Source: Entophlyctis helioformis
Taxonomy: Eukaryota; Chytridiomycota; Chytridiomycetes; Chytridiales; Chytriomycetaceae
Assembly (NCBI GenBank): GCA_025526915.1
Contig: JAHLKH010000005.1
Coordinates: forward strand, 62,001 to 126,000
DNA length: 64,000 nucleotides
Direction: 5' to 3'
Shown: piece by piece, positions 55,794 through 64,000 of the stretch
How positions within the stretch are numbered: position 1 is the first letter of the stretch
How the letters are laid out: each line of letters begins with the position of its first letter
Program-made: the position numbers and the translations under genes
The notes under the pieces: model-generated
Database searches by the model: none
Told to the model about the DNA's origin: nothing
The model's input: the letters and a program-made list of their open reading frames with translations, nothing else

Positions 55794-56818
55794 TCAGTGC
55801 ATCTCGGCTGTTGCCTTTGAAATGACGCGCAAGTTCTCTTCAAACAGCTCGTGGAACGCATTGGCGACGTAGTAGAACGGAGCCTCGACGTCCGTGTTGG
55901 TTGCCTGTGAGCGCGTCGCCATTGGAAACAGCAGTCAGACAAGGGAGGTAGGTGGATGGGTGGGAGTGCCCTCCTTGATCATGGCAAGGCGTGTGCGGGG
56001 GCTCCACTTACAGCCGAGCATTCAAAAAAGACGAGATTGTGTTGCTTGGCAAACTCTTCGCCCTGCTGGGTGGGCACGGCGCGACGGAAGGACTGGTCTG
56101 TCTTGGTAGCCACCAACACACCTACACGCGGCGGCGTTCTGTCAGACAAGGATGACACCACGCACGATGGGCAGAGAGGGACACGTCGCACCTCGGCATC
56201 CGTGGCGAAGATCCTTGATCTGTCTGATAAACTGGATCCACTTGGGCAGTGCCTTGAACGAGTCTGCGTTTGTGGTGTCGTACACGAGAATGAATGAGCT
56301 GGCTGACTTGCACTGTTGCCAACCACCGTCGGCCGACCAGTCGACCAGTCAGTCTTGATGCACACCGGCATGAGCATGAGAACGAGCATGAGCACGAATG
56401 GACAGCTGATGCGAGCCAACGCACGTATTTGGAGAGATACTCTTGGAACACATCGTGGCCGGCGAGGTCAAAGATGAACATTTCGATCGTGACGTTGGTG
56501 TCTGGGATGTTGACGGGCTTGACACAGACGTCTGCGTGGATGGTCTGTAGGCGGCATGACACCACGAGCAGCATGTAAGCCGTTGGAGTGAATGCATGGA
56601 ACGGGCAAGGCTGCACACCATGCCATATGTCTTGGGATACTGTGTGCCGTCGCTGTGGAAAGTCTGGACGAGCGCAGTCTTGCCGACCGTCGCGTTGCCT
56701 GTAGACCGATGCGCGCGTGAGCGACAGCCTGCTCGCCCCGACATGCACGGCATGCATGGCATGGCAGTCACGCACCAAAGATGAGACACTTGTTGCGGAG
56801 GACGAGCTTCGAGGTCAT
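55794..56818 (-). CDS. IFT27: Intraflagellar transport protein 27 (IFT27, Rab-like GTPase)
   Basis: Small Rab-like GTPase of the IFT-B complex. Multi-exon on the minus strand, MTSKLVLRNKCLIFG followed, after an intron within the P-loop, by NATVGKTALVQTFHSDG and TQYPKTYGM. Next: VNIPDTNVTIEMFIFDLAGH (the switch II Gly), SFILVYDTTNADSFKALPKW, GVLVATKTDQSFRRAVPTQQ (TKTD replaces the usual NKxD), and NLVFFECSA. It ends with a helix containing YYVANAFHELFEENLRV. The HSDGTQYPKTYGM segment is strongly IFT27-like, which distinguishes it from Rab28 and RabL2. No C-terminal prenylation Cys, as in IFT27. Confidence 0.93.
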
Positions 56819-56948
56819 GGCGCAAGGCTGTTGTTGTCAGTTGCTCGGCAAGGCGCGTCTCGCCCACAAACAAACACGACATGCCCCGTCGCGACAGTTG
56901 TTTCCGCGAAACCCACCAACCGCCGTCCATCCCTCGAACAACACTGGC

Positions 56949-57520
56949 ATGTCCGTTGCAGTGGCACCCGACGCACACACGGTCGGACCAGGCGGTCAGG
57001 CCGGCGGCAACATCACGCAAACCACCAGCTGCGAGGAGTGGCTCATGCTCCGTGTCGGCTCTGTGCCACGCAACTCGCTCGGCTGGTTCCGCTGCGGCGT
57101 GGGCTTCTACAACAAGAAAGAGTTTACAAAGGCCATCGAGTGCTTTGAAAAAAGCGTGCAGCTGGACCCTATGAACGTAAGCCACGTTCTGGAGCCATGT
57201 CGCTTGCTGTCTGTCCTGCAGAGTGCCGCCACCCCCCGCCTGCTGGTGTCTGGAACACGCTTTCGCTCGACGGTGGTCGCTAACCACACCAACAGTACAA
57301 TGCGTATCAGATCATGGCACGCGCGTGCATCGCCGTCAACCGTATGTCTCCATCTTTGGCTCTGCTGTGCTGTCGACGAGCGACATCCGTGGCTAACCCA
57401 CCTTGCGGATGGCCGGATGCAGGCAAGGACGATGCCATCAATGCACTGAAGCAGTCGGTCTCGCTCGACAACCCATCCGACTGGCAGCTGCTGGTCGAGC
57501 TCACCTCCAACAAGGAATAG
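56949..57520 (+). CDS. Small TPR protein of unknown function
   Basis: Three exons, 56949-57176, 57296-57341 and 57423-57520, totalling 124 codons (123 residues). After a 25-residue Gly/Thr-rich start comes EEWLMLRVGSVPRNSLGWFR, then a TPR (RCGVGFYNKKEFTKAIECFE, KSVQLDPMNYNAYQIMARAC) and a second half (DDAINALKQSVSLDNPSDWQ). I do not recognise the family. The position head-to-head with IFT27 (130 bases between ATGs) could hint at a flagellar role, but that is only an inference. AATAAA lies 52 bases past the stop. Confidence 0.75.
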
Positions 57521-57847
57521 CCCCTGCGCATCCACATCCGCATCCGTGACCGTGACCCACCACCAGACTGCAATAAACCGTCCAATGCAAGAGTGTATAC
57601 ATATTTATGGGTCAATAGGGGTTGTATCGCGCCGGCGCTGATTGCCCCGACGGATCCTGCCCGCCGTGCCCTTGCCGGCGGCGTATCAAAGTGGGATTGA
57701 ACTGGTGGCCCGATATTCATACAATTACCAAGAATTTTGGAATTAAATTCGACCCGATGCAAGCCCACATATCACGTGATTGAAGGTTCGAGTCAGCAAC
57801 GAGCATGCGACGACAGGCGGGCGAGGCACATCCAACAAGCATCTCAC
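57521..57847. other. Intergenic sequence holding the probable 3' end of the Fanzor element
   Basis: 327 bases between the TPR stop codon and the structured segment after the Fanzor gene. It contains an AT-rich patch at 57715-57750 with an imperfect palindrome (CCAAGAATTTTGG) and a TCACGTGA E-box near 57772. If the Fanzor model is right, the element boundary should lie close to 57847, but no terminal repeat or target-site duplication could be defined by eye. Confidence 0.4.
57572..57577 (+). terminator. Polyadenylation signal of the small TPR gene
   Basis: AATAAA 52 bases past the stop codon at 57520. Confidence 0.6.
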
Positions 57848-57916
57848 CTTCTATTGAAGTGACCCGTTAGGTCGATCGGGAGGTTCCCCGATTCAAAAAG
57901 TTGGTAGACGTAGAAG
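57848..57916 (-). ncRNA. Candidate omega-RNA (guide RNA scaffold) of the Fanzor system
   Basis: Starts at the base immediately after the Fanzor TGA stop (57917-57919) on the minus strand. The first six bases, CTTCTA (57911-57916), pair perfectly with TAGAAG (57848-57853). Inside this outer helix are hairpin A, ATCGGG-GAACCT-CCCGAT (57875-57892, 6-bp stem), and hairpin B, GACC-TAACG-GGTC (57861-57873, 4-bp stem), one base apart. An alternative CTTC-AATA-GAAG hairpin (57848-57859) competes with the outer helix. Known Fanzor and TnpB omega-RNAs come from the 3' end of the nuclease gene, with the guide beyond the structured scaffold at the element boundary. The fold was derived by hand. Confidence 0.55.
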
Positions 57917-60900
57917 TCAGAGTGCCAAAGGCTTGTCATGCGAGACAACACATGGCTGGCAACCAGGCTTGGGCACGACACTTGCACGCTGCTGGATGGA
58001 TCGATGCATTGCCTTGATGTCTGCAAGGTGCACTGGCGTGGCTGGATCGTCACTGGCTGGCGTGTGCGTCAAGTAGAGCGGCCGGTGTCCATAGAGCAGA
58101 TGCCACAGTGCGACCATCCCGATGTTAGTGGCTCCAAGCACATCACGGTGGTAGACGGTCTTGCATGGTATGCACTCGTAGCGTCGCAGGTTGGTGCGGT
58201 TCTTGTCTGGGATCCGCTGCTTGCACTGCGGGCACATCTGGCTGGTCAGGTTCTCGTTGCAGCGGTAGATCTGTGTGTGTGAGTGTGTCAGTTGGTGCAC
58301 AGATGGATGGATGGATGGCATGGCATATCAGACGCACATAGGCATATCCAGACGACCGCAGATGCCTGATGAGAAACTTCTCAAACACAGCGTGCCGGCC
58401 ACCTTGGCCTGTAAAGTCGATGCCAAATGCCCAACAACGGGAATGTCCTTCTCTGTTGGCTTGTCACAGCGGCCTTGAGACGCAGCAGATGCGCGCTTTC
58501 CAGTGGTCGAGCCTGCCAGCTTCATGATGCCCTCAAGAGCGTTTCCGCGAATAGACGTGCTGTTGCTGCGCATGGTGAACCGCTTGGCCTTGACCTTCTG
58601 TGGAATGCCATGCCATGCCATGCCGTCCAGTGTGATCAGCAGGCAATCAAGCAGCTTGGCGGCCGTGTCAATGGGCATCCAGAAACAGAGAAACGTACCC
58701 GTGCATTCAGGAATGGCGAGCAGTACGCACGGCAGCGCAGATCCCAAAAGGCTCTCTCGCCAGGCTTGACGTTTGGATCGGCATGCTTTGCTGTCTTGAA
58801 TGCAATGGCCGCCTGGATGTCAGCTGCCTTGGCAAGTCGATCAGCAAACCTGGCACAAGAGACAGGCACTGTGAGTTGATCTGGTCAAGAGTGCGCGTGG
58901 CAGAGTCATTGCATGCATACCAGTCCTGAAAGATACGCTCAGCATGTGCCATGCCAGAGGAGAGCACGTAGTTGGCCTCGAGCGTATACGAAAAGTCCCT
59001 AAGGTCGACCAACATGCTGGACGCGCCATACATGTACCGCTGGCCCCAATCAATGCCGACAATCCGCACAAACCGGTAGCCCTTGTTGGTGAACAACTTG
59101 TTGGCTTTGACAATGTTGAGCAATCGCTGCGAGGCATAAAAGTTGCGCTGGGCCTGTCGTGCCATGGCATGAGTGAGGAATGTGCAATGCAAGTGCACCA
59201 AAGTGCGAGTTTAGCATGCAAGTGGCTTACAGGATTGGTCGCTTTTGGCTTGGTGGCTGTGGATGGCATGTCAGTCGGTGCTGGTGCCAAGTGTGCGTCA
59301 TAATGGCACAGCAACTCACATGTGCCATCCATGTGATCATGCCCATCATGCCCATCATCATCATCATCAGAATCATCATCATCATCAACCCACGGCTGCT
59401 GGCCTGAAGACACCAGATTGGAGCATGCAGATCAAGGCGGCAGTCAGAATCAATGTGTGCACCATCGCATCCAAGCACGCCACATACAGCAAGGTGACTC
59501 TGGACGGTCTGTGCGGCCATTGAGAGCCAGTTGAAAGATGCTGTTTCCATCCGTCCTGATGCTGCCTGTCAGGATTGCCTTGGTCCGTTTTGCTGGACGC
59601 ACAGCATCAATTGCAGCCTTGATATGCTCCTCGCGCTCCTTGCCAACCAGACCCTGCTCGTCAGCCTCTTGCGTCGCCTTGGCTGTGGCCTTGGCAACCG
59701 CGTCCATCTCATCTTTGGCTTGTGCAGGTGTCTGGAAGCGACCTTTCTCAGGGCGGAGGCCGGGAAGCAGGACGTCGAGAACACAGAGCTCTTGGCTTGC
59801 GCTGAATGCGTCTTATCTTGCTATTGGGCGTTAAGCCCAAGTCTTCTTTTGTAGTCTTGGACAAAAGTGCAGTGTCAGCATCAAATCATACAAGCATGGC
59901 ATAAACAAGTGCGACCTACTGAGTGCATCCAGAAGCTCCAGTCGCAATGTCTGCAAAGCATCACTCTGCTTGCCATTCTTGTGCTCATCCTGGTCCCCAT
60001 TACCGCCCAAAAGAGGGTGGCCTCGGTAATGAGGATGAACGGGTCGCGGCTCGCCGCCTCAGGGCACAACTTGATTGTTGTGCCAACAGCAAGCTTGCGC
60101 AGCTCGTAAAAGATCCTGATCTCGGAGAGTGACGCATTGCTCAAGATCGGCACAAGCACATGCAATGCTTGCGGGATTGTATCAAGACCGCCGTTGTCTG
60201 TGGCTGGCAGCGTGCTGGGTGTCGCGGCCGGGTGGTGGCCTTGTCCTTCCTGCCCGTTGCCTCTTGGGTTTGGCGCTGTTGGTGGCTGATGAAGAGGTGG
60301 ACCGGTCATGCTTGAGACCCGAGGCAGGAGGGGCAGCGTCTTGAGCAGCGTGTAGTGAGGCGTCCTCAGTGGCCGGTGGTGTGGTTGATGCTGGCCCTTT
60401 GCGCCTTTGTTTCTTGCGTGTCGGTGGGCTTGGTGTGGCGACCTCGGCAGCAGTGCGTTTGGCATCCTTGGCGGCGGCATGCTTGGCATCCTCAGCGTCT
60501 TCTTAATGATCCCGATCCACCTGTCAACATCCTTGGCAGACGCACCCTGCACCAGGCTGTGAGCTGCATCAACCAACAGCTTGGACTGGTTGGTCATAAA
60601 ATGGGTGGCCAGCATGCGGCCGACGTCGCGTGCAAGGTTGTTGTAGATGTCGTGCCTTGCTTTTGCACAAAGGCTGCTATCAAGCCTGTAGGGCAGGACA
60701 GCCTCCATAGTGTCCGTGTGCACAGCGTCTGCCGTCGGTGCACTCTTCTGCATCAAGGCAGACAGATCTGCATTTGCCTGCTCCACAGTTGACTTGAACT
60801 CATTGGCCTTGGTTGTCGCTGTCTGCTGCACGCGTGCTGTCCGTGAGATTGACTTCCGTGTGCCTGCTTTCCACGTCGCTGCTTGCCGTGTGGTTTTCTG

Positions 60901-61672
60901 TGCTGCAGATGCCTGCTGTGTCGCGTCCACCTGCCCCTCCTTCCGTCTCCATGTCCGATGTATGATCAGCTGCATCACGGTGACTATCCAGCAGTGGACA
61001 GGGTACTTGATCGCATGCGGCTGGACCATCTTATCATCCGCCATGATGTATCCAATGTGATATAGCAGCATGTCCAAAGCACCCTCGCCACCAGACGTGC
61101 TGCTGGTGAGCGCCGTGAGCAGCTCATTTGCAGTTGGGACTGCTGGCGGCTGGGCGGCTGGCAATGGTGCACCGGCGCTGCTGGCTGCTGTTGCTGCTGT
61201 TGCTGCCACAGTCTGCGATGCATTTGCAAAGGTGCAGATCTCAAGCACCGTGTCACGCTCGAGAGGCACCAAACTGCCATAGCGAGGGATCTTCGTGTGC
61301 TGCTATGTGGTCCTGTGCCATACATCAGCCATGCATCAATGCGCTCTTGGAGGATGCACCTGCCCGTTGTCTGCATCGTGCCCTTGCCCTCGCCGAGGTC
61401 GTCTGGGTTGATGTAGTAGTATGTTTTCACACTGCCACTAGTGACTTGCATCACGCAGTAGTCAAGTGGCAGTGGGCGTCTGGGCTGAGCTTGACAAGAA
61501 CCTCGACTATCGCGCCGATCAACGCGAGGACAGCACACAAGAGGCCGGCTGTGTAATCGTACACCGTCAGGAGGGCGTCCTTTCTGACCGAAATGGCCGT
61601 CTGCTTGGCCAGTGGTGTCTTGGTATGGGTCCCGAAATACTTTGTATACTCTGGCTTGTTTGACAGCATCTT
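57917..61672 (-). CDS. Fanzor-type RNA-guided nuclease (eukaryotic TnpB homologue), one apparent frameshift
   Basis: Minus-strand exons read by frame: 61539-61672, 61324-61437, 60004-61273 (about 420 codons), an uncertain patch 59790-60003, then about 59488-59750, 59231-59403, 58921-59153, 58699-58849, 58338-58597 and 57917-58270. The WED-like region has AILTGSIRTDGNSIFQLALN. RuvC-I is RFVRIVGIDWGQRYMYG. The block before the zinc ribbon is AFGIDFTGQGGRHAVFEKFL. The glutamate, in the position typical of Fanzors, is in YRCNENLTSQMCPQC, followed by YECIPC (zinc ribbon) and RuvC-III YHRDVLGATNIGM. So Asp, Glu, Asp and four Cys are kept. The frame shifts at the GGG run 58430-58432, between KDIPVV and GAFGID, where one more G would restore it. 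Family role: cuts DNA guided by an omega-RNA; usually carried by transposons. Confidence 0.85.
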
Positions 61673-61782
61673 CTGCTCATTTCACGAGTGCACCAGTCAG
61701 CCTCACAACACCAAGCATCCAGAGCAACATGGCAACCAAACCCCATACCGCCAGATCCACAATCATAACACGGCTGTTATGC

Positions 61783-64000
61783 TGTGCCTCATCCTCATCC
61801 CTTGCCCTTGCTCTTGCCTTGCCTTGCTCTTGCTCTTGCTCTTGCTCTTGCTGTTGATCTTGTCCTCATCCTTGTACTTTGGTGCTTTGCGATGATGCTG
61901 CACGTTTTTCCGACTGTCTGGTGTTTTGACTTTGAGGACCCCATTGACTGTCTGGACTGGCCCTGATGTCACGCAGCAATTGCCCGCAACATCCAGATGT
62001 GTCGCCCGTCTCTCATGATATTCGTGTCTACCAGCAGAATCCATGTCAGCAAGCACAATCAGGGCTCGCAGCATGCCATCTGCCACTTACGTGCTTGTCG
62101 TTGTTGGAGATGGGGCCTTCCGGTGGCGTCGCCCTGACTTCTTCTTGTTTTTCTTGATGGTATTCTCGGTCGTAGCCTTCTCAGCTCGCTCGGCATTCTC
62201 CTTTGCATGTGCAGCCTCTGTCTCCTCAGAGAATTGGAATGGCGCCTGCCGTGGTTGGATGCAGCATCAGGCATCCCTTCCTTGTGCACGCAACACAGTC
62301 ACAATCACCAACGGTGCCCTGTAACCTACCGTCGTATTAGTGTCATCGAGTACACCAATGAGAAGTTTCTTGCGGTGTGCTTGTTCAGGGCGATCGTTGT
62401 CAGATGACTTGGGCAGCGGTGGAGGAGGACCAGCCTGGGAGTAGAATGGTCAGCAATCGTGCCAAATCAGTACAGGCACACACTGTCAGTGGAAGATGAG
62501 ACGCACGGCGGCTTGCTCAATGACTTTCTGCAGCAGGGCAATGGCCATTTGACGCTGATTGACGAGTGTGATTGAATTGCCCTTGCTGATACGTCGATTC
62601 TTGAGGCCATTCAAGTCATTCAGCAGGTTTGTGGCCTCATCATGGATAACTGCAAACGTGTCTGCCGGCGCCACTCTTGTGCTGATCCGTCCGTGGTACT
62701 CGGTCTTCTTCTTGCCTGTATCTGCAATAGCACATTCAACAAAAACGGCACTGTGAGTGGATTGCATCAACCATTTCAATGCAAGCAGAATATACTTGGA
62801 GTGGCTGTATGCCGGAAGGGGGCATTTTGTGGATGCACGATCTCATCCAGCTGCGTCTTCATTCTTGGAGCAACAGTCTGTCCAGGAGCAATAGATCGAG
62901 TCAGTCACATTCAAGATCAACAACCGTGTGTGGTGCAAGAGCAACGGCATGCATCCAAGCCGTGCAGCAACTTACAAAAGCATGCCAAATCATCTGATCC
63001 GCCTTACTGAGCACCATGTAATCATCTGGCTCGATGGACTGCTCGCGCACAATCTGCAGCAACTGTGCACTAGCCGCCCTGCAGATGGCTGCGAGGATGT
63101 CACGGCTAGTGACTCCATCATACTTGCTTGCAAGGAGATCAACTGTTTGCTCTATGATGGCGTCCAATGCCACGTGGCAGCCATTGACCTCCTTGAATGC
63201 CACATCCAGCCGCCTGCTGGCAACAATGCCATTGGCAAGCTGTTTGACGCGATCGCTCGTCAAGTGGACAGGTGGGACGCCAGTCTTGGCTTGCTGCTGC
63301 TGCTGCTGCGCGGTATGGATCAAACAGCAACCAGGCGATGAGCACCTGCACAATAACAAGATCGCAGCATCAGAAACAGGAAAGCCATGTCAGTTTTCCA
63401 GAAACACCACAGATGGCATGCATGCATACTTGGCTCCAGCCGAGGCTGTCACGTTGACATACATGTGGTTGGCATTGCCTTGTTGAGGCCCAGATCTGTG
63501 CAAGGCATGCAATCGTGTCAATGCCAATATGTCCATAATATCCTTCAAGAATAGACTTGCCTCGCGACAATCGGGGCTGCAGTCGTGCCAACTGGCGCTT
63601 TGGGCTCGATTCGGTCGACAAAGACTGAGAATGCGTTCTTGAACATTGGTATGAGGCTCTTGTCATGACTCTTGGCCAAGTCCTTGATGTACGCATCCCT
63701 GAGGTCATACATGAACACCTTGGCCTCTTCAGGAGTCTCGAGTTTTCTATAGAGCTCGGCCTCCTTGCCATCCAACTTGGCCGCCTTGCGATCGAACCAC
63801 GCGTTAATGAACTTGGCAGCGGCCGCAATCCCTGAAGGCAATACAAGCAGAATTGCCATGAAGACAACAAATGGCATGTGAGTCATGACAGACAACAAAA
63901 CAGGCGCAGCAACTCACCATGGCGATTGCGGCCAAAAAAGTCTGTATGAGAAAACGCTGCAACACCCTGACATGCACCGCGAAAATCCCGCACGCCCAAT
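61783..64000 (-). CDS. Upstream exons of unknown protein, probably the N-terminal part of the Fanzor gene (5' end off window)
   Basis: A chain of exons on the minus strand that splice in frame: 63918-64000 (continuing), 63561-63831, 63430-63495, 62977-63345, 62796-62877, 62507-62721, 62330-62434 and 62091-62245. Typical stretches: HTDFFGRNRHGIAAAAKFIN, EEAKVFMYDLRDAYIKDLAK, RLDVAFKEVNGCHVALDAII, EYHGRISTRVAPADTFAVIH, KENAERAEKATTENTIKKNK. The 63561/63495 intron uses a GC donor (GAG|GCAAGT) and gives a phase match that a GT donor at the same place would not. A Lys/Ser/Gln/Glu repeat region (61783-61962) follows, and contains a stop codon in the frame that best matches the upstream donor. I recognise no domain and no transposase. 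It may be one gene with the Fanzor or a separate upstream gene of the same element. Confidence 0.5.

Follow-up and report, generated by a model that had tools for sequence, protein, structure and literature searches.

The 64,000-nucleotide stretch of DNA analysed here (the window, G000:C5:62001–126000) probably contains a Fanzor1-like gene in decayed form, carried as cargo by an inverted-repeat DNA element of 8.8–9.5 kb and belonging to a family for which we infer an RNA-guided role. Fanzors are related to TnpB, from which Cas12 descends, and occur in eukaryotes; the reason why transposons retain them is treated as an open question in the parts of PMC10432273 and PMC10711439 that deal with it. 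The gene occupies 57917..61669 on the minus strand, in agreement with the 57917–61672 given in a first-pass annotation, and its eight exons, disrupted in the window copy, were placed with a model derived from sibling copies together with the deposited model of the window copy itself (P0002, contig C5). The genome is almost certainly that of the chytrid Entophlyctis helioformis, and the related deposited proteins (P0001–P0008, the first of which maps to contig C214 at 98–99%) all come from this species, which bears out the chytrid origin proposed for the Fanzor.

The exon model was drawn from an alignment of nine elements, the window's included. Along the minus strand, exon 1 (59920..61669) encodes the N-terminal region and has six single-base deletions in the window copy, exon 2 (59488..59855) carries the SIRTDG block and two 2-base deletions, exon 3 (59320..59403) is an Asp-rich linker of variable length, and exon 4 lies at 59231..59256. 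The RuvC-I aspartate falls within VGIDWG in exon 5 (58921..59153). Exon 6 (58699..58849) is followed by exon 7 (58338..58597), with a single-base deletion after 58434, and by exon 8 (57917..58270), which holds the relocated glutamate (NENLTS), the C4 zinc ribbon and the RuvC-III HRD. The conserved blocks were found on the minus strand in the order first described, with SIRTDG at ~59.55k, VGIDWG at ~59.06k, and then NENLTSQMCPQC, YECIPC and HRDVLGATN within 58270–57917. The model holds because one sibling copy, C138, is in frame throughout the gene. Its seven GT-AG introns measure 62–102 bases each, and 1,076 residues are read ahead of the first stop, with SVRTDG at residue 686, VGIDWG at 780, NENLTSQ at 971, YECTDC at 997 and HRDVLG at 1007; ~780 residues precede RuvC-I in this protein. 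The junctions from exon 2 to exon 8 are identical in the sibling-derived model and in P0002, a prediction deposited for the same assembly.

The splice junctions had been described as keeping the frame; the seven GT-AG introns do fit, but in comparison with the siblings the frame is broken inside the exons. Nine frame-breaking exon deletions were seen in the window copy relative to five sibling copies. Single bases are missing after 61476, 61299, 60498, 60254, 60231, 59991 and 58434. The base is present in all five siblings at five of these seven gaps, in four of the five at 60498, and at 58434 in all three siblings that cover the site. Two bases are missing after 59847 and again after 59815, both filled in every one of the five siblings, and exon 8 has two extra bases (57981 and 57980) that are absent from C138, C219 and C6. 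The deletion at 58434 sits between RuvC-I and the zinc ribbon; among 38 distinct contexts around it, the base was found in 34, three (L006, L049 and L059) were not comparable, and the sole gap was that of the window copy itself (L009). P0002 loses the frame at this point (...PVVGHLASTLQAK...), meets a stop eight residues into exon 8 and is without the ribbon and RuvC-III. The exon deletions and the truncated P0002 rule out a copy that is intact as assembled, and the earlier picture of a catalytically intact gene and good candidate for activity gives way to one broken at nine or more points. Judged from the alignments, then, the exon model holds and the "intact, active" reading of the window copy does not. 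The window copy looks young: relative to five siblings, it has few substitutions of its own, 39 over 9,164 alignment columns.

The damage was judged from one assembly, which leaves mutation and assembly error to be weighed against each other. We consider it unlikely, while giving it some weight, that the frame breaks are uncorrected single-base deletions in an assembled repeat and that the window copy is truly intact. In a tally of changes found in a single copy out of the six aligned, the window copy had eight single-base deletions and no single-base insertions; at least two of these deletions (65832 and 65802, in continued window coordinates) fall in a part with no codon signal, and sibling C219 likewise has seven private single-base deletions. 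However, the same assembly shows one such deletion in sibling C6 and none in C102, and the deposited gene model is truncated in the same way, though it was built on that assembly.

Seven elements span the gene (C5a, which is the window's, C138, C219, C6, C198, C5b and C67), and C9 and C102 are partial. Read-through of the gene was found in one of the seven, C138. In C67, exons 5 to 8 are in frame from RuvC-I to RuvC-III, and inserted stretches with stops lie in exons 1 and 2; the remaining five, the window's included, are frameshifted. Exon 2 of C219 and C6 contains extra stretches of 113 and 124 bases, respectively, that are absent from the window copy. In the left 1.45 kb of the element (~65.04k–66.5k, in continued window coordinates), identity between subfamilies, C67/C198 versus the window element, is 93%, while their other aligned parts are mostly 72–84% identical and the right end 90–91%. 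The likeness of the left 1.45 kb suggests that the subfamilies have exchanged sequence.

The profile search that the first-pass annotation had proposed as a check returned a significant match, so one of the contrary outcomes that it had named, a lack of any significant hit, did not arise. The zinc-ribbon exon of the window scored 39.4 bits against Pfam PF07282 (E 7e-10), and because this exceeds the cut-off of 26.3, the ribbon match is beyond chance; in a genome search with the same profile, all 150 scored candidates, out of 205, matched. The TnpB/Fanzor superfamily pattern is given in PMC3627910 as D-X(125,275)-[TS]-[TS]-X-X-C4 ribbon-X(5,50)-RD. The in-frame C138 protein has this D...[TS][TS]..C4...RD arrangement, with spacing inside the published range, and the Fanzor-like relocated glutamate (ExxxxxxC) stands six residues ahead of the first Cys of the ribbon. 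Together with the PF07282 match, these features uphold the call of a Fanzor/TnpB-type nuclease. The host element is probably a non-IS607 eukaryotic transposon, the setting expected of Fanzor1, as judged by its inverted ends and target duplications. As described in the relevant part of PMC10711439, the relocated glutamate together with DPG in RuvC-I is the Fanzor fingerprint, DPG being near-exclusive to Fanzors. On sequence grounds the family is a Fanzor1-like variant and not a certified Fanzor1 member; we use only the label Fanzor1-like because it fits the PMC3627910 motif and has the relocated glutamate but lacks DPG.

Searches beyond the ribbon gave little. No solved Fanzor chain matched P0001 at E 1 or 492 residues of C138 at E 10. 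The best PDB matches of the C138 piece were calcineurin chains (E 0.025), followed by two RNA-guided nucleases over the ribbon (E 0.39 and 0.63), and AlphaFold models had mean pLDDT of 40.7 and 44.9, values too low to support a fold search. When residues 560–1055 of the sibling protein served as a protein query, 7,992 candidates were scored and not one reached E 0.001, and two further protein searches returned E. helioformis proteins only, one and eight of them. A literature search, in which few subscription papers were covered, found no paper joining Fanzor and Entophlyctis.

RuvC-I reads DWG instead of DPG at all 35 fetched sites, which raises the alternative that the family lies outside the Fanzor lineage and stems from a separate capture of a TnpB with a relocated glutamate and a D-hydrophobic-G RuvC-I. 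A TnpB clade with this combination is described in section 23 of PMC10711439, and the NCBIfam matches, confined to the ribbon and below cut-off, were to TnpB models (best NF040570, E 1.8e-6). We regard a separate capture as quite improbable, as the introns, the long region before RuvC-I and the eukaryotic inverted-repeat element all fit Fanzor1, and the DWG-to-Glu spacing of 186 is outside the 120–160 that the pattern search in PMC10711439 used for RuvC-I to Glu.

A stand-alone gene was ruled out, as the gene ends inside a larger repeat. The element of the window copy is 8,825 bp long; its inverted ends are imperfect, and short target duplications flank it. Its part inside the window is 57707..64000 on the minus strand, and its far end lies 2,531 bp past the window. 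The boundaries of the copies are sharp and shared, on the right at window position 57707 and on the left at G000:C5:128531. The right inverted end (GGCCCGATATTCATACAATTACC, 57707..57729, no strand assigned) is where the homology of the copies stops, and two bases from it is the right copy of a 9-bp target duplication, ATTGAACTG (57696..57704, no strand assigned), the other copy of which follows the left end outside the window. Exact direct repeats of 7–11 bases, lying no more than two bases away from each end, were found in six of the eight two-ended elements, with lengths of 9, 8, 11, 9 and 9 bases, and 7 in a 988-bp derivative. The script found no direct repeat for C198 and C67; C67 has eight of nine bases matching by eye. 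The target duplications start with CA (coding strand) in C5a, C138, C219 and C67, and not in C6 or C5b; CA is also the pair that adjoins the left end of SPu-1 in the description of that end in PMC10432273.

Just past the right end, window positions 56300–57520 contain, by eye, reading frames of two protein-like kinds, which we take to resemble a TPR protein and an IFT27-like small GTPase, and the element seems to lie between genes. The left end had 82 genome matches at up to two mismatches (control 0). Merged lists put Fanzor loci at no fewer than 193 on at least 149 contigs, a rough lower bound for a genome of 29.57 Mb in 482 contigs, and 3' marks outnumber 5' marks (186 hairpin blocks vs 82 left ends). 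Copy numbers of this order have precedents: PMC3627910 reports ~150 copies for CMe-1A and 150 loci for CRe-1. Two places with a left end and no listed Fanzor had no right end or hairpin block in the 1,089 and 3,000 bases read. No transposase was recognised in the pieces of the element that were scanned; in the genome, the MULE transposase profile (PF10551) gave no candidate, with the control positive in three of 14 genomes, and no Merlin-type transposase was found. Some copies have ~47 extra bases past GGGCC (ATTTGCCGGCGGTTTGCCGGCATTC...CCCCT), giving two kinds of right end; the longer kind was seen in L001, L004, L005, L006, L008 and L013 and at 53 genome places. The longer right end, with its extra 47 bp, makes Helitron2-like ends a possible reading. 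C198 and C348 have a common extra sequence ahead of the left end.

Between the stop codon and the right end lies a 32-base block of two hairpins (57859..57890, minus strand). This block, just 3' of the stop codon, had 186 genome matches at up to three mismatches (control 0), with no mismatch in the block at any place among the matches listed. We aligned 34 copies whose right end could be recognised (34 of 35 hits, with one duplicate removed). Both hairpins are kept in all 34 copies, with one compensatory change, and mean pairwise identity was 96.6% in the block, 94% in the ribbon core, 69% in the stretch from core to block and 84–92% in the rest of the right end. Over the putative right-end RNA, one of 31 pairs had a compensatory change, and no convincing covariation was seen in the rest of the right end in these copies. 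Four pieces folded at best mildly better than their shuffles (z –1.18, –1.92, –0.59 and –0.67), and Rfam gave nothing above the gathering score over 57000–64000 (best sR2, E 0.073). The S. punctatus guide RNA, as described in PMC10432273, covers the block from the stop to the right end plus 14–15 bases of variable sequence beyond, and by analogy with it we take the two-hairpin block as a candidate guide-RNA scaffold. Just after the hairpin block (window 57843–57850), most of the 34 copies in the alignment have a splice-donor-like AAGGTGAG or AAGGTAAG, with TGCTGAC further on; no clear acceptor was seen inside the element.

The hairpin block lies near the end of the transposon, and six of the seven gene-spanning elements, the window's among them, have no read-through of the gene. 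Both facts would suit a drifting or domesticated passenger gene with no RNA-guided function, next to a hairpin block that serves transposition or RNA processing. We hold this to be a rather remote prospect, given the state of the ribbon exons: among those fetched, the glutamate is present in 36 of 37 (Lys in one) and the four Cys and HRD in all 37, and third codon positions of the ribbon are more variable than first and second positions (91% vs 96% identity).

Upstream of the Fanzor on the same strand is a spliced gene that resembles XPG/FEN nucleases; its window part extends over approximately 61766..64000 (minus strand), and its best-conserved exons lie beyond the window. At least 88 of 128 such loci have a same-strand Fanzor downstream, at 5.1–13.1 kb (median 5.9 kb). 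Among the loci listed, the other pairs within 15 kb comprise one on the same strand and five on opposite strands, and contig ends and incomplete locus lists may account for the remaining 40 of 128. In all four aligned, hand-spliced copies the D of [VI]D, FHVDG, EAD.CIAR and NDSD are invariant, an order of acidic residues that is FEN-like, and a diverged copy begins with MGITGF, a start resembling that of FEN-type nucleases. XPG_I_2 (best E 0.0035) and 5_3_exonuc_N (best E 0.0029) each matched two of three members, both below cut-off, and one member gave an IclR_C match of similar E (0.0038). The diverged member gave no such profile match, and the gene product matched no PDB nuclease at E 10. 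Position relative to the Fanzor is a stronger fact about this gene than its profile support. No paper pairing a Fanzor with XPG was found in the literature search.

The order along the element is XPG-like gene, Fanzor, two-hairpin block and right end. If the Fanzor1-like gene is RNA-guided, the nuclease made by intact siblings would bind a transcript of the right end, with the two hairpins as part of the scaffold of that RNA and the host DNA just past the right end as the guide. Once this nuclease had cut an empty target site, repair from the filled chromosome would restore the element; flap trimming during excision or repair may fall to the XPG-like protein. The most that the broken window copy could contribute is guide RNA in trans. 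We put forward tentatively, as possible and still doubtful, that this is a two-nuclease mobile system, in which a DWG-type Fanzor cuts empty sites and the element's own XPG/FEN-like nuclease processes the ends. The family offers natural replicates, with 186 near-frozen hairpin blocks, a drifting adjoining stretch, variable host flanks and a fixed partner gene, which are suited to asking whether the guide RNAs match empty sites and whether the partner nuclease is needed. Inclusion of the DWG type would also broaden the definition of Fanzor.

Among known systems, SPu-1 of Spizellomyces punctatus, which encodes the Fanzor1 protein SpuFz1 (PMC3627910, PMC10432273), shares with the E. helioformis element a chytrid host, an inverted-repeat element, a C4 ribbon with relocated glutamate and, in the interval from the stop codon to the right end, a conserved block; the sections on SPu-1 in these papers likewise report no transposase between its ends. 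SPu-1 is ~2.1 kb long, with one 633-aa open reading frame, 33-bp inverted repeats and putative TA duplications, whereas the E. helioformis element has 8.8–9.5 kb, eight exons, ~1,076 aa, mostly 8–9-bp duplications, DWG and an extra XPG-like gene. The Chlamydomonas elements CRe-1/2/3 (PMC3627910) also encode multi-exon Fanzor1 proteins (in 5 or 10 exons), and CRe-1 is similar in its ~150 loci and its excess of 3' over 5' ends. The account given there places them in Helitron2, with a hairpin on the 5' side and targets rich in T, in contrast to the inverted ends and short duplications of complete E. helioformis copies. ROr-4, PBl-3 and MCi-4, fungal Fanzor1 elements of MuDR type in PMC3627910, resemble the present family in their 9-bp duplications and, as that account has it, in having no internal MuDR transposase. 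They were assigned to MuDR through inverted repeats common to MuDR elements, whereas in E. helioformis the MULE profile matched nothing in the genome. The TnpBs with relocated glutamate and D-hydrophobic-G described in PMC10711439 have the same combination of RuvC-I and RuvC-II signatures; they sit in the TnpB tree in that description, whereas the E. helioformis family is spliced, eukaryotic and longer in its spacing from RuvC-I to the glutamate.
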